A stretch of DNA of 50,468 nucleotides, taken from assembly GCA_030916965.1 (NCBI GenBank), contig JAUPVQ010000019.1, positions 1 through 50,468 on the forward strand, given 5' to 3'. Position numbers and translations under genes: made by a program. A model generated the notes under the pieces. The model saw only the letters and a list, made by a program, of their open reading frames with translations, was not told the origin of the DNA and did not search any database. Position 1 is the first letter of the stretch, and every line of letters begins with the position of its first letter. This stretch comes from Patescibacteria group bacterium (GTDB lineage Bacteria > Patescibacteriota > Minisyncoccia > Phycocordibacterales > UBA9973). Positions 29,243 to 35,874 of the stretch are shown piece after piece.

Positions 29243-29270
29243 TTGCTAAAATAGTTTAATTTGCTATGAT
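29243..29270 (+). promoter_or_regulatory. Sigma70-like promoter of the agmatinase gene
   Basis: TTGCTA-16 bp-TATGAT with TGC extension; the first ATG of the ORF track lies inside the -10. Confidence 0.6.
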
Positions 29271-29277
29271 ACTCTCT

Positions 29278-30171
29278 ATGATAGATACAATAATAAATCA
29301 AAAGAAAAATACAAAGAATGCAGATGTGGTCATCCTTTCTGCCTGCTACGAAAAAACTGCTTCTAGTCGCAAAGGTACTGCAAGTGGCCCAAAGGCAATA
29401 TTAAAAATGCTAGATAGTAAATTGGAGCTTTTTGATCGCAAGTATCAAAATAAGCCCTCAGATTTTATTAAAATTGCTGAAAAGGATTTAGGTAATATCA
29501 GTTCACTTACACCCAAAAAAGCACTAGAGAAAATTTCAAATGAAAGTGCTAAACTCCTTGATCAAAATAAATTTGTTTTCCTTCTTGGTGGCGAGCACTC
29601 TGTATCTCTTGGGTTGCTTACAGCATTGTCTAAAAAGTATGATCCAAAGGATGTCACAGTGCTCCAAATAGATGCGCATTGTGACTTACGCAATGACGAT
29701 TCCGATTATAGTGATGATCCCACAAATCTAGCGCATTCATGCGTACTGCGCCGTACTCATGAGCTTGGCTACAACCTAGTACAAGTAGGTATACGCACAT
29801 ATGCCAAAATGGAGTACGATTATTTCACTAAAAATAAAAAAACCATTACCACATTTGAATTTGGTAATGGCAACAAAATTCCAACTATTTCAGAAATCCT
29901 TAAATCTATCAAGACTAAATATGTATATATTACTATTGATGTAGACGGATTTGACCCGAGCTTCATGCCTGGTACTGGTACACCAGTCCAAGGAGGCCTT
30001 GAATGGTGGTATGGTGTAGAACTACTTGATAAAGTTAGTAGCACAAAAGAATTAATTGGTGCCGATATAGTAGAAGTATCTCCACAAAAAGAAACAGTTC
30101 TAACAGAATACGGATCTGCACAACTACTCTACAGTATAATAGCCAACAAATTTAAAAATAAATTGAAATAG
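29278..30171 (+). CDS. speB: Ureohydrolase, probable agmatinase
   Basis: 'FLLGGEHSVSLGLLTAL', 'VLQIDAHCDLR', 'YITIDVDGFDPSFMPGTGTPVQGGLEWW'. Confidence 0.85.
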   Translation: MIDTIINQKKNTKNADVVILSACYEKTASSRKGTASGPKAILKMLDSKLELFDRKYQNKPSDFIKIAEKDLGNISSLTPKKALEKISNESAKLLDQNKFVFLLGGEHSVSLGLLTALSKKYDPKDVTVLQIDAHCDLRNDDSDYSDDPTNLAHSCVLRRTHELGYNLVQVGIRTYAKMEYDYFTKNKKTITTFEFGNGNKIPTISEILKSIKTKYVYITIDVDGFDPSFMPGTGTPVQGGLEWWYGVELLDKVSSTKELIGADIVEVSPQKETVLTEYGSAQLLYSIIANKFKNKLK

Positions 30172-30179
30172 TAACTAGT

Positions 30180-30213
30180 AAAAAAAGCCCTGATTGATTT
30201 CAGGGCTTTTTAA
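30180..30213. terminator. Bidirectional intrinsic terminator
   Basis: aaaaaagccctgattgatttcagggctttttaaa. Confidence 0.9.
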
Positions 30214-30217
30214 AACT

Positions 30218-30978
30218 TTACCGATAATTATAATAATTATCTGACGACCTACCAAAGAAGTAACCATAATCAAAATCTTCCATCTTCTCTTCCCAGTCAG
30301 GATATGAATTATGATCTACAATTATTCCTAAATGCATGTTCTTTAATTCCCATGCTCTCTTTTTTGAATAACTATTAATATCTATAAAATTGGCGTGAGG
30401 AAAGGTGCCAGCATTAGGATTTTCTCCATGATATTTTCTTCCCGCAAGAGTATAATACCCAAGATCAAACAAAATTTTTGAAGTAATACGAGAATTTTCC
30501 ATTATTTCACTAAAAATAGATTTAGATTCTAAATGATCTTTGGTAAAAGTATGATAAGAATACATCAATAATATTGCTGCTTGTAATTCGGCAGAAAATA
30601 ACTTTATATGCATTTTCACCTCTATTAAACCATTTTTGAACAAACGACTAAATAGTTCCATTAAATCGCTTGGTGCAGTAAGTCCAGCTTCAGGTATCTT
30701 CATAGAATTACTAATCATGTTTTTTCCAAATACAACTTTCAAAAAATAGAATTTTGTTCTACTTGATTGTTTGTTCCAATCGATAGATTTAATTACTTCA
30801 TCATTAAAACCTATTTCAGATAATTTTAAATTTCAATTTTGGTAATATCTTTTGTTTCTTCCAGAATTTTTGCCAATTTTTTTTTAGGACGACGAGCTAG
30901 GTTCCATTTTTCAAATTTACTTATAAAAACCATTTGTTCGAAAGTAAAATTTTTTCCTCGAAAGATTTTTATATTCAT
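30218..30978 (-). pseudogene. Hypothetical gene apparently split by a one-base frameshift
   Basis: 50-aa ORF (30826-30978, MNIKIFRGKNFTFEQ...TKIEI*) abuts an ORF with no ATG (30218-30742, TTG start) that is open upstream in the -1 frame. Confidence 0.65.
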
Positions 30979-30992
30979 TTTACTTGATATTT

Positions 30993-31006
30993 AATTGTTA
31001 AAGAAC
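30993..31006 (-). promoter_or_regulatory. boxA-like sequence, copy 1
   Basis: GTTCTTTAACAATT, near-match to the rrn boxA core (GCTCTTTAACAATT), 14 nt upstream of the ATG at 30978. Confidence 0.5.
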
Positions 31007-31116
31007 TTAAAAAGAGAAGTTCAGATACTCTTTGCAAATGTTGTTGAAGTGAGATTTGCCATCTCCTTGTTGATTCAGACACCTTGTGCCCGAAGCAACG
31101 ATTTTTTATTTTACAC

Positions 31117-31269
31117 ATAAAAAATGGCGACATTTGAGGTCGCTTTTTGAAAATTCGTATTAGAATTTAGGAGATTTTATATGTATACACAAATACTCTC
31201 AAGCGCCCTCAAATTGTGAGTTCGCTCTCGTCGGTTGCTTATTTGTATTTGTGCATGAATGTGATTCAT
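31117..31269 (-). ncRNA. Candidate structured leader or small RNA, copy 1
   Basis: 5' hairpin ATGAAT-CAC-ATTCAT; 9-bp stem CACAAATAC/GTATTTGTG enclosing further hairpins; terminator-like GCGAC-ctcaaat-GTCGC followed by a T run. Confidence 0.6.
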
Positions 31270-31275
31270 AATTTA

Positions 31276-31304
31276 TATATAACACTTGCCAAATTGCAAG
31301 TCAA
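31276..31304 (-). promoter_or_regulatory. Sigma70-like promoter with palindromic spacer, copy 1
   Basis: TTGACT-17 bp-TATATA; ACTTGC-N6-GCAAGT palindrome at 31284-31301. Confidence 0.75.
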
Positions 31305-31314
31305 TGTTTTAATA

Positions 31315-31323
31315 TGTGGATAA
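31315..31323 (-). promoter_or_regulatory. DnaA-box-like 9-mer TTATCCACA
   Basis: Perfect match to the consensus DnaA box. Confidence 0.5.
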
Positions 31324-31325
31324 CC

Positions 31326-31586
31326 TTATTTAGCTAATTTTATCTTGAGTTGCTTTTCAAATGCTGTATAAATAATTTGTATTTTATCCTCTACCTTATC
31401 AAGCCGACGTTCGTGGTTTACCTCTATTTTACTGAGCCTAAAATCAATTTTATCTAATCTTTCCTCCAGTATCTTAACATCATCTTTTGTTGCCATCCTA
31501 GATTCAATACCGTTAAACCCCTTAGCTACCATAATAGCTAAGTCATCAATAGTCATTTTCTTTGATTTTTTTACCTCTTTCTTCAT
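31326..31586 (-). CDS. Small coiled-coil hypothetical protein
   Basis: 86 aa, heptad-like 'LEERLDKIDFRLSKIEVNHERRLDKVEDKIQ'; TATAAT 8 nt before the ATG. Confidence 0.6.
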   Translation of the reverse strand: MKKEVKKSKKMTIDDLAIMVAKGFNGIESRMATKDDVKILEERLDKIDFRLSKIEVNHERRLDKVEDKIQIIYTAFEKQLKIKLAK

Positions 31587-31628
31587 ATTTTTACATTATA
31601 CTACAACCAAATTTCTACGCAAATTAAA

Positions 31629-32645
31629 TTATATGTATTTTGCGATCAAATTGTTGGCTTCTTCGGGATTTGCCTTCATTTCTAGTAGTGCCTGTAGCAT
31701 CAATGGCGCTACTATTGTCGCGTCTGATTCCACTACGAACATTGGAGTGTCTTGAGTGAGTTTGTCCCAAGTTATTTTCTCGTTTGGAGTGGCACCACTG
31801 TATGATCCGTATGATGTTGTAGAGTCCGAGATTTGGCAGAAGTATGCCCATGGCTTGGCAGGCAATTCCATATCGTATTTAAGTGATGGCACTACACAGA
31901 TTGGGAAATCTCCGGCAATACCTCCTCCAATTTGGAAGAATCCAATCCCCTTACCTTCCGACAATCTCTGATATTGGTCGTACAATTCTCCCATATATTC
32001 AACACCACTTTTTGCAATCGATGCACTAGCATCACCATGCTTTACGTGTGAAGCAAATATATTTCCGAAAGTAGAATCCTCGTATCCTGGTACAACGATT
32101 GGTATATTGTTTTGTGCTGCTGCAAGTAGCCAACATTCATCGGCATTACCCTGATGCTTTTCTTTATCAATCATTTGGATTAAGTCATAAAAATATTCAT
32201 GCCAGAATCGGCGTGTGCCATTCCTAGTAGCTTCTTCCCACATTGGGACAATATGCTTCTCTACAGCACGAAATGCTTCATCTTCGGGAATACTTGTATC
32301 GGTAACACGGCGCATTCTGTCTTCCAAGATTTTTGTATCATCTTCTTTTGTAAAATAACGGTAATCAGGGAAATCTTTGTAATGATTGTGAGCAACAAGG
32401 CGGAATAGTGATTCCTCTAAGTTGGCACCTGTTACAGACATACCATGAATAAGTCCTGCTCTTATTGCTGGAGCAAGAGTAATACCAAGCTGTGCGCTAG
32501 ACATTGCACCTGCAACTGCCCAGAACATCTTGCCACCTCCCTCTATATGGCGCCAGTACGCAATGAGTGCGTCGCGAGTAGCGCGAGCATTGAAGTTCTT
32601 GTAATTCTTTAGCACAAATTCTAATGTAGATAAATTGTTATTCAT
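31629..32645 (-). CDS. Deoxyhypusine synthase-family protein
   Basis: 'NFNARATRDALIAYWRHIEGGGKMFWAVAGAMSSAQLGITLAPAIRAGLIHGMSVTGANLEESLFRLVAH', 'DATIVAPLMLQALL'. Confidence 0.88.
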   Translation of the reverse strand: MNNNLSTLEFVLKNYKNFNARATRDALIAYWRHIEGGGKMFWAVAGAMSSAQLGITLAPAIRAGLIHGMSVTGANLEESLFRLVAHNHYKDFPDYRYFTKEDDTKILEDRMRRVTDTSIPEDEAFRAVEKHIVPMWEEATRNGTRRFWHEYFYDLIQMIDKEKHQGNADECWLLAAAQNNIPIVVPGYEDSTFGNIFASHVKHGDASASIAKSGVEYMGELYDQYQRLSEGKGIGFFQIGGGIAGDFPICVVPSLKYDMELPAKPWAYFCQISDSTTSYGSYSGATPNEKITWDKLTQDTPMFVVESDATIVAPLMLQALLEMKANPEEANNLIAKYI

Positions 32646-32668
32646 AATTTTATTTTAGCATTTAATAA

Positions 32669-34051
32669 TTACCAACCAAAGTTTTTACCAACTTCATCTG
32701 GTGTTTCCCGTTTACGAGCTACCACAATATGCCCATTCTCCGCAATAATCTTTAGAGGTGATGAGAGCATACAGTGATGCGCCGCTAGAGGATCTTGATA
32801 TGCACCTGTATCCATCACCGCAATATACATTGGATCTTGGCTTTTGTTCATATCATAATCTGGCAATGTAACATACCCATTTACTCCAGTATATATATCA
32901 TCTGAATCACAAGAAGATCCCGCTAGCCACACATCTTCGAGCTTGTCGTCGTGCTTGCTATTGAGCGGTATTACTGACCACTTCTGCCCTATTGCCCAAG
33001 TATCGAGCAAGTCGTTCATGAAGCTACCATCTATGACATACCATTTCTTTGCATCAGCTTTTTTATTTGCAATTTTCTTTGTATCAATAATTTTAAAGAC
33101 TGTAACTTGTGCTGGTGCGACAATGTAGCGACCCCATTCACAAATCAAGTTTGGGTGTGGCATGCCACGCTTCTCACTTTCTTTCTTTACAAGGGTAAAT
33201 ATTCTTTCCATCAATTTCTCGATTGGGTAGCTACGATTGCGAGTATAAGGAATCGGCATACCTCCACCAATATCGATTGTATCAAGAGATGGATTCTTTT
33301 CCTTTACTTTGAAATATACATCGAGCGCGTATTTAATTGGACCCAAAACATCCGACAGTTTCTCAATTTGTGACCCTATGTGATAGTGCAAAATTTTAAG
33401 ATTTTTGAAACTTCCCATTTCGATAATTTCTTTTGCAGAGAATCCGAAGCGATCGATTGGCTTGTTCCAATACGAGGCAGCCTTGATAGGCATGTCGAGT
33501 CGGATACCTACATCATATTTAGAGTGCTGGAGGAATTTGAGCTCGTTTGGTCCTTCAATAAGAGGGAAAATTTTAACTCCTTTGTGTTGCAAGTCGTCAA
33601 TTAAGTTGATATATTTGTCAGTTTTTGGCCCTGAGCAAAGTATACGAATATTTGGATTAAATGATTCTTGCTCGAGCATACGCTTCACAAGCCAAAGGTC
33701 GTTGAAAGATGAAGTTTCCAAATGCGCACCTTCACCGACAAGTGCCATAACTACCTCCTTGTTCTGATTCACTTTCATTGGGTAGTGATATAGAAATTTG
33801 CCTTTGTAGCCAACTTTCTTTGATAAGTGAGTAGTAAGGTCTAGGAAGTCCTCTAGGCGCTCTTCAATAATAAAAGGAAAGAGGATCTCAAGTGATGTCC
33901 CCATTTTGTCCGCCAAGTAGCGGATATTATAAATATTGTTCCCCTCTTTTACTACCAAGTCGCCGTCCTTGTTGAAATCGAAATACTGAGTATTGTACTC
34001 TGTGGCTCCAAGCTTCCAAAGCTTGCGTGAACTCACTGATTTTTTAGTCAT
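32669..34051 (-). CDS. speA: PLP-dependent fold-III arginine decarboxylase, compact form
   Basis: 'FLYHYPMKVNQNKEVV' PLP-lysine motif, 'HYHIGSQI', 'IDIGGGMPIPY', 'ICEWGRYIVAPAQV', 'SSCDSDD'. Confidence 0.82.
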   Translation of the reverse strand: MTKKSVSSRKLWKLGATEYNTQYFDFNKDGDLVVKEGNNIYNIRYLADKMGTSLEILFPFIIEERLEDFLDLTTHLSKKVGYKGKFLYHYPMKVNQNKEVVMALVGEGAHLETSSFNDLWLVKRMLEQESFNPNIRILCSGPKTDKYINLIDDLQHKGVKIFPLIEGPNELKFLQHSKYDVGIRLDMPIKAASYWNKPIDRFGFSAKEIIEMGSFKNLKILHYHIGSQIEKLSDVLGPIKYALDVYFKVKEKNPSLDTIDIGGGMPIPYTRNRSYPIEKLMERIFTLVKKESEKRGMPHPNLICEWGRYIVAPAQVTVFKIIDTKKIANKKADAKKWYVIDGSFMNDLLDTWAIGQKWSVIPLNSKHDDKLEDVWLAGSSCDSDDIYTGVNGYVTLPDYDMNKSQDPMYIAVMDTGAYQDPLAAHHCMLSSPLKIIAENGHIVVARKRETPDEVGKNFGW

Positions 34052-34730: not shown

Positions 34731-34739
34731 TGTGGATAA
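34731..34739 (-). promoter_or_regulatory. DnaA-box-like 9-mer TTATCCACA
   Basis: Perfect match to the consensus DnaA box. Confidence 0.45.
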
Positions 34740-34785: not shown

Positions 34786-35613
34786 TTAGATGATTTCACC
34801 AAGTAAGAATGCTTCAGAATCAATTTTGTTACAATCATGAGCAAACACAATTAAGCAATCCTTTGGAGCATATATTATATTGCACCCATCGGCTCCAATT
34901 TTGGTGCCTTCTGCTATTGGCTCAAAATCATAAAATTTCCTTGAGAGAACAAATGAATCAGTTTTCGATTTGTAAATAGAAAACATTTTTACATATTCAC
35001 GAACAATAGGACGATCAAATGAAATCGAACGGTAATTAATGTGACCTCTCGCTTTGAGAAATGCATAAATTGATTTCTTCGCAATTTCAATCGACATTGG
35101 ATCATTATGTTGTCCACACTCGATACAAATACCAATTTTACCCTTAGAAAGCATGTATCCATCAGATGCACCAGGCTCGAGTGGGTCGAAACCATAGACT
35201 ATTCTTTCAAATCTAGCTGGAAATTTTGATACAATTTCCTTAGCATTGTCTTCGCAGATAATAAATGGCGTACTAGGATTCAAAGTAGAGTGGATGTCTA
35301 AGAGTGCATCTCCTAGATCAAAAACTTTTTTAAGTATTTGAGCTCGCTTGTATTCATAAGATTTTTTAATTTCTTTTGAATATAAAAGGATGTCTGAGAA
35401 CAATCGATTAAGATTAAAATCTATGAATCTTTTGTTCTCTTTGATAGCTTGTATGTTACCTAAAATAAAGATAACAGTACCTGCTTCAATTGTAAGATAT
35501 GGTAATAACTGCTGAAGTGCAACTATCCCACAAATTTCATTACCATGATTACCTGCCATTACAATACTTGTAGGCCCAGGATTTTTTCCAGTTAAAATGA
35601 TTTTGTTTTTCAT
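34786..35613 (-). CDS. Succinylglutamate desuccinylase/aspartoacylase-like zinc carboxypeptidase (M14 superfamily)
   Basis: 'SIVMAGNHGNEICGIVALQQLLPYL' (H..E), 'DLGDALLDIHSTLNPSTPFII', 'CIECGQHND'. Confidence 0.8.
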   Translation of the reverse strand: MKNKIILTGKNPGPTSIVMAGNHGNEICGIVALQQLLPYLTIEAGTVIFILGNIQAIKENKRFIDFNLNRLFSDILLYSKEIKKSYEYKRAQILKKVFDLGDALLDIHSTLNPSTPFIICEDNAKEIVSKFPARFERIVYGFDPLEPGASDGYMLSKGKIGICIECGQHNDPMSIEIAKKSIYAFLKARGHINYRSISFDRPIVREYVKMFSIYKSKTDSFVLSRKFYDFEPIAEGTKIGADGCNIIYAPKDCLIVFAHDCNKIDSEAFLLGEII

Positions 35614-35636: not shown

Positions 35637-35650
35637 AATTTTTAAAGAAC
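35637..35650 (-). promoter_or_regulatory. boxA-like sequence, copy 2
   Basis: GTTCTTTAAAAATT, 23 nt upstream of the ATG at 35613. Confidence 0.45.
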
Positions 35651-35676
35651 CACTTATAGGGGGTTCTATTACCTAT

Positions 35677-35820
35677 AAAAAACGGCCTCTTTTTTGAGGT
35701 CGCTTTTTGAAAATTCGTATTAGAATTTAGGAGATTTTATACACAAACACTCTCAAGCACCCTCAAATTGTGAGTCGCCCATCGGTGGTTATTTTGTATT
35801 TGTGAATAAAATGTATTCAT
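35677..35820 (-). ncRNA. Candidate structured leader or small RNA, copy 2
   Basis: GAATA-N5-TATTC 5' hairpin; CACAAATAC/GTGTTTGTG stem; CGaCCTC-A6-GAGGcCG terminator-like hairpin then a T run. Confidence 0.6.
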
Positions 35821-35826
35821 ATTTAA

Positions 35827-35855
35827 TATATAACACTTGCCAAAATGCAAGTCAA
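35827..35855 (-). promoter_or_regulatory. Sigma70-like promoter with palindromic spacer, copy 2
   Basis: TTGACT-17 bp-TATATA; ACTTGC-N6-GCAAGT at 35835-35852. Confidence 0.75.
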
Positions 35856-35865
35856 TGTTTTAATG

Positions 35866-35874
35866 TGTGGATAA
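35866..35874 (-). promoter_or_regulatory. DnaA-box-like 9-mer TTATCCACA
   Basis: Perfect match to the consensus DnaA box. Confidence 0.5.

Follow-up and report, generated by a model that had tools for sequence, protein, structure and literature searches.

Amino-acid attenuators of Enterobacteria, such as the trp, his, leu and thr leaders, combine a short ORF, in which codons for the regulated amino acid stand in a run, with a protector/antiterminator/terminator logic and an intrinsic terminator before a biosynthesis or aminoacyl-tRNA synthetase gene. The leaders described here are like these attenuators, among them the E. coli thr leader, in the codon-run ORF, in the same three-helix logic, in the intrinsic terminator before such a gene, and in a Thr leader placed before a homoserine dehydrogenase-like gene. 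They are unlike them in that the ORFs lack a Shine-Dalgarno motif and begin where transcription is predicted to start, and in that one sequence family from Patescibacteria, without any Rfam leader match, carries different codon runs, including an Arg version before argG.

In Salmonella, the uORF of orf34/speF contains consecutive Arg codons, and its translation rate senses arginine and alters the mRNA structure, ornithine decarboxylase being controlled through Rho, RNase G and exposure of the RBS with no intrinsic-terminator attenuator (PMC6386406). The Arg-codon ORF is common to orf34/speF and the present leaders, which differ in their intrinsic terminator and in peptides that match no scanned Pfam family. 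Leaderless Cys-rich uORFs of mycobacteria, a genus in which leaderless transcripts are common, place codon runs upstream of genes related to the same amino acid (PMC4633059; PMC1262725), and differ from the present leaders in the amino acid (cysteine), in having no obvious intrinsic terminator reported, and in phylum. In S. aureus, the availability of arginine is sensed through Arg codons in the leader peptide of rbfL (PMC13009471), but there control is exerted on translation initiation by RBS occlusion, and it represses under limitation.

The window, i.e. the whole 50,468-nt stretch of a Patescibacteria contig that was analysed, contains two copies of an element of ca. 150 nt, both transcribed leftward: W1 at 31119-31269(-) and W2 at 35677-35820(-). 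The 48-bp block of the original prediction (31133-31180 = 35693-35740) was exact, and the identity extends to 49 bp; on the plus strand within the window, this block was the sole repeated 25-mer family. With copy 1 as the query, the host genome (730 kb, 42 contigs) returned the W1 and W2 sites only, and the RNA model of the element gave no further confident site there. The sister genome G014 of the same genus (Ca. Nomurabacteria SJ250, contig JADLCZ010000094.1) holds two copies, GA (MNSFHAQIQISNRRRATHNLRALESVCVKIS) and GB (MNHIHTQIQISNRRRATHNLRALESVCVHK), both with CGA-CGA-CGA runs; judged by similarity and by the order of genes, GB is the counterpart of W1 and GA that of W2.

Both window copies have their own predicted promoter and terminator, as had been proposed: a promoter-like TTGACT-17-TATATA, whose strict pattern occurs within the window at these two sites only, is located 6 nt before the leader ATG, and an intrinsic terminator follows. 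The promoter was absent from the list of a generic promoter scanner because its -10 ends in A. The layout of promoter and leader ATG is the same in all four close copies (W1, W2, GA, GB).

Table 1. Features of the two leader copies and their downstream genes in the window.
Feature	Position	Strand	Sequence or remark
Copy 1 promoter	31276..31304	(-)	TTGACT-17-TATATA; contains palindrome ACTTGC-N6-GCAAGT (31284-31301)
Copy 1 leader ORF	31177..31269	(-)	MNHIHAQIQISNRRERTHNLRALESICVYI, then stop; leaderless, 30 codons
Copy 1 regulatory codons	31222..31233	(-)	CGA CGA GAG CGA (Arg Arg Glu Arg), codons 13-16
Copy 1 segment 1	31217..31229	(-)	protector 5' arm GAGAGCGAACTCA; outer arm CACAAATAC at 31245-31253
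Copy 1 segment 2	31187..31212	(-)	TTGAGGGCGCTT + GAGAGTATTTGTGT; within ORF
Copy 1 segment 3	31134..31161	(-)	AATACGAATTTTC + AAAAAGCGACCTCAA; antiterminator 3' side and terminator 5' arm
Copy 1 intrinsic terminator (3:4)	31119..31148	(-)	GCGAC/GTCGC then T6
Gene downstream of copy 1	30218..30978	(-)	frame appears broken: ORF 30826-30978 vs ORF 30218-30742; no family match
Copy 2 promoter	35827..35855	(-)	TTGACT-17-TATATA; contains palindrome 35835-35852
Copy 2 leader ORF	35737..35820	(-)	MNTFYSQIQNNHRWATHNLRVLESVCV, then stop; leaderless, 27 codons
Copy 2 codons	35779..35787	(-)	CAC CGA TGG (His Arg Trp); single Arg codon = conserved codon 13
Copy 2 segment 1	35771..35779	(-)	GGCGACTCA
Copy 2 segment 2	35741..35766	(-)	TTGAGGGTGCTT + GAGAGTGTTTGTGT
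Copy 2 segment 3	35694..35721	(-)	AATACGAATTTTC + AAAAAGCGACCTCAA
Copy 2 intrinsic terminator (3:4)	35677..35708	(-)	
Gene downstream of copy 2	34786..35613	(-)	AstE/AspA catalytic-domain protein (PF24827), probable deacylase

A perfect palindrome, ACTTGC-N6-GCAAGT, sits between the -35 and -10 of both window promoters and was found among 24 genus genomes only at the leader promoters of W1, W2 and GA; it is possibly an operator for some repressor, and a wider regulon was rejected, as the genus occurrences are these three leader promoters only. DnaA-box-like TTATCCACA (-) was observed just upstream of both leader promoters (31315-31323 and 35866-35874), and at 34731-34739 upstream of another gene.

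The element had been correctly recognised as a real structured repeat and its named hairpins are present in W1 and W2, but an in-frame ORF in each copy and an alternative antiterminator pairing had both been overlooked. The leaderless ORF begins 6 nt past the -10 box and terminates past the big stem in both window copies, and in all four close copies its start coincides with the predicted transcription start and codon 13 is the first CGA. Indels within the ORF preserve the frame: W2 has lost 3 nt, and in W1, by inspection, the deletion of one base is compensated by the insertion of another. Of the ATGs within the window, 3.8% open an ORF of 27-31 codons. Codon differences among the close copies were mostly nonsynonymous, and synonymous/nonsynonymous counts on the leader ORFs gave no support for peptide selection; thus the frame, codon 13 and the RNA pairing appear to be kept, and not the peptide itself. 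Within the window, leaderless starts seem to be frequent, since 16 of the 48 predicted genes carry a -10-like hexamer 5-8 nt before the ATG and an SD-like motif was present in three.

From leader ORF to terminator, the sequence accommodates a classical switch of protector (1:2), antiterminator (2:3) and terminator (3:4). In the fold of the full leader, the ORF RNA pairs with itself as the protector and the terminator follows, and when the ribosome-covered Arg-codon RNA was removed and the RNA was cut before segment 4, segment 2 (TTGAGGGCGCTT...GAGAGTGTTTGTGT) paired with segment 3 (AATACGAATTTTC...AAGCGACCTCAA) at about -14 to -22 kcal/mol. The long stem emphasised in the original prediction exists and equals the protector; the antiterminator, which was not described there, is better conserved and functionally central. 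The 49-bp block consists mostly of segment 3, the conservation of which is explained by its need to pair with both segments 2 and 4. An extra hairpin was observed just past the terminator, at 35642-35676 in W2 (AGAACC/GGTTCT) and at L032 228-262 in GA (AGAGCT/AGTTCT), with compatible changes on both sides.

A covariance-model search, as proposed alongside the original prediction, was run across the family and resulted in diverged homologous leaders in the genomes G118, G129 and G170. In G118, leader C10 (MKNIFINVLISGTITTTTPKLEVVSERL, Thr run) precedes thrS (TIGR00418, 652 bits), and G118:C12 (MINSGRDIYNSYAATTTTSQKLEVVSERS) and G129:C20 (MKDMILNIQNNQTTATTTLQFEVVLERL), both with Thr runs, each lie before a gene with a homoserine dehydrogenase domain (PF00742). 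Leader G170:C29 (MFGKVVINSISRRRDSKILEVTSECLSK) precedes an uncharacterised gene and a YerC-like regulator, and in all four diverged homologs a -10-like hexamer is located 6-8 nt before the ATG. Model R2, built from these four and the four close copies, returned over 1251 genome searches an Arg leader in G097 (MKILKVSILRGRRTQHQLRAVFAI) outside the training set with 59.7 bits and an E-value of about 1e-7, and weaker R2 matches in G041, G473 and G011 were read as further leaders. The G041 leader (MKYYAKTKLNNSPVPPLKIWVAGFCV) has Pro codons, and the gene that follows it is proC-like, with a TIGR00112 score of 57 bits that does not reach the cutoff. The G473 leader (MALISLKTAYFFFFSPSVLRVGFSD; L075 reverse complement, L122) contains four Phe codons and a strong antiterminator, and is followed by an uncharacterised gene of 103 aa and then, by sequence reading, alaS. 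In both G097 and G011, the leader is followed by a gene for a GNAT acetyltransferase (L033 1734-2410; L085 reverse complement).

Clustered regulatory codons were present as RRER in W1, as RRR in GA, GB and G170, as Thr codons in G129, G118a and G118b, and as Pro codons in G041, W2 being weak with one Arg. The GB copy is located 28 nt before argG (TIGR00032, above cutoff although the gene is cut by the contig end). Amino acid and gene are read as matching in four leaders with good gene evidence (argG, thrS and two homoserine dehydrogenase-like genes) and in one with weaker evidence (proC-like), and from this pairing of Arg, Thr and Pro runs with their genes it follows that leaders placed before different genes also differ in their regulatory codons to match. 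Downstream of the window copies, GA and G170, the gene is AstE/AspA-like or uncharacterised, and none was recognised as belonging to the metabolism of the coded amino acid.

True argG is rare in the family, with strong matches in 5 of 147 genomes, and in G051, argH adjoins argG. The argG genes of G123, G132 and G051 were searched for an Arg leader in front of them, and none was found. In G135, another genome of the family, argG is preceded by a probable T-box, detected only there (RF00230; L065 4236-4412 (-), E=1.7e-7 at a relaxed threshold, below the gathering score), which would be another way to sense charging before argG; it would do so by direct tRNA-RNA reading, with no leader peptide. 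In blastn searches of 100 relatives, one strong match was obtained besides G014, namely the terminator of the G097 leader (E=5.4e-9), the others being weak and mostly AT-rich, and many weak model matches were bare terminators. The strict DNA pattern returned only the window copies among 380 phylum genomes, a GTDB contig scan returned JADLCZ010000094.1 and two Clostridia matches, and no element was found in the viral contigs searched.

On the basis of the four-copy alignment, standard pairs fill 100% of the antiterminator cells against 30-52% when slid, with 91% for the protector and 90% for the terminator; in the eight-leader alignment, 94.0% of the antiterminator cells pair against 33-50% slid. 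The covariation initially claimed did not hold among the four close copies, in which no pair was changed on both sides. In the eight leaders, two antiterminator pairs were changed on both sides (C-G to U-A, columns 74/141; U-A to A-U, columns 90/124), and the count of cells changed on both sides was matched in only 1 of 500 column shuffles, which is supportive but not proof, because the data are small and related. For each of the four close copies, the 2:3 pairing exceeded that of 1000 synonymous recodings, with one exception at most, and that of dinucleotide shuffles nearly always; for G129, G118a, G118b, G011, G097 and the Pro leader, the support from synonymous recoding was weaker or absent. 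The protector formed without a ribosome was weak in W2, GA, GB and G129.

Ribosome stalling was simulated in nine leaders with a 31-nt footprint. With the ribosome at the codon run, the equilibrium fold switched from terminator to antiterminator in W1, W2, GA, G129 and G118a. In GB, G170, G118b and G097, the run stall gave the antiterminator only before segment 4 was transcribed, and the equilibrium fold of the full leader kept the terminator; antitermination in these four would therefore need co-transcriptional kinetics. A ribosome placed on segment 2 forbade the antiterminator in 9/9 leaders.

Judged from the ORFs, the codons, the three alternative helices and their positions in the sequence, W1 and W2 are very probably ribosome-mediated transcription attenuators keyed to arginine codons, and the earlier suggestion of a cis-acting attenuator-type leader was correct, with the regulatory-codon ORF and the antiterminator/terminator switch now added. 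The translation, stalling, kinetics and arginine signal that we infer for W1 and W2 would proceed as follows. RNA polymerase would start at the A of the leader ATG, producing a leaderless mRNA, and a ribosome would start on the leader peptide of 27-31 codons. When Arg-tRNA is scarce, the ribosome would stall at the CGA codons (codons 13-16) and cover segment 1, allowing segment 2 to pair with segment 3 as the antiterminator, and transcription would proceed into the downstream gene. When Arg-tRNA is plentiful, the ribosome would move over segment 2 and the 3:4 intrinsic terminator would form.

The attenuation mechanism is well supported for the leader family; the present responsiveness of the window copies is less sure. 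As copy 2 has one Arg codon and no recognised Arg-biosynthesis gene follows either window copy, these may be repurposed or decaying. That they are relics or repurposed attenuators, perhaps no longer arginine-responsive, in which a duplicated leader persists, we consider unlikely but worth weighing. In its favour, true argG was searched for and found absent from the host genome, the Arg run of copy 2 is eroded to one codon, at either site the gene after the leader is not the one found in the sister genome, and a frameshift, whether from pseudogene decay, a sequencing error or recoding, appears to split the gene after copy 1. However, both copies retain an intact promoter, ORF and antiterminator, all substitutions inside the window-copy antiterminators preserve pairing, and the W1 terminator stem is still present although its segment 4 differs.

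In the surroundings of the two leaders, a polyamine-type cluster (agmatinase, deoxyhypusine/homospermidine synthase-like protein and arginine decarboxylase-like enzyme) was observed at 29266-34051, between and beside them. Also boxA-like GTTCTTTAA was observed 20-37 nt before gene starts (30998-31006 and 35642-35650, (-)), likewise in the sister genome, counts including duplicate loci.

Rather than uncharged tRNA, a nascent peptide together with a small molecule could stall the ribosome, i.e. ornithine or arginine as in SpeFL, or a ribosome-targeting drug that acts at R-X-R motifs. Such an R-X-R motif occurs in W1, GA, GB, G170 and G097, GNAT acetyltransferase genes follow the G097 and G011 leaders, and Salmonella orf34 likewise has consecutive Arg codons at positions 12-13 (PMC6386406). 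An arrest peptide is nevertheless improbable, as homologous leaders exchange Arg for Thr or Pro with matching genes, a pattern consistent with tRNA charging rather than with a single arrest motif, and W2 is without R-X-R. The leader peptides gave no Pfam or NCBIfam match, including SpeFL/DUF2618, at E-values up to 10, a search whose power is limited by the short peptides.

A structured leader with a terminator and no named Rfam class could also be a metabolite riboswitch or a protein-bound attenuator of an unnamed class, the former having been raised in the original prediction, but this is very improbable: the structure lies within a leaderless peptide ORF and is explained by mutually exclusive helices with no extra conserved aptamer-like core, and the codon runs change with the gene controlled across the family. 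The absence of a named class was confirmed by Rfam at gathering and relaxed thresholds, with no family for the element among models including the Thr, His, Leu and Trp leaders. A T-box identity was ruled out by the lack of an RF00230 match in the window or L032, and a tRNA-like element was ruled out with ARAGORN, which found none. A duplicated small RNA, also suggested earlier, that acts in trans would fit the separate promoter and terminator, the length of about 150 nt and the two copies, but is equally hard to credit, since 12 of the 12 leaders examined are upstream of a same-strand gene and the ORF and antiterminator are conserved.

The mechanism preferred here, classical ribosome-mediated attenuation, is of an already known kind. 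No report of such leader-peptide attenuators in Patescibacteria or the candidate phyla radiation was found in the searchable literature, outside which subscription papers mostly lie, and priority is therefore not proven. In Patescibacteria, or at least in the order of this Nomurabacteria-like genome, we see an even chance that the leaders constitute an undescribed family of leaderless attenuator cassettes, diversified by swaps of the codon run (Arg, Thr, Pro, possibly Phe). The family would be a case of leaderless leader peptides acting with intrinsic terminators; it would also be a natural experiment, since the amino acid sensed by related cassettes changed as they were joined to new genes. 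Little is known of gene regulation in these ultra-small, mostly uncultured, reduced bacteria, and a self-contained attenuator family predicts which gene responds to which amino-acid shortage, for which E. coli reporters suffice with no culturing. If true, the cassettes would serve as gene-by-gene sensors of amino-acid starvation in reduced, partner-dependent bacteria.
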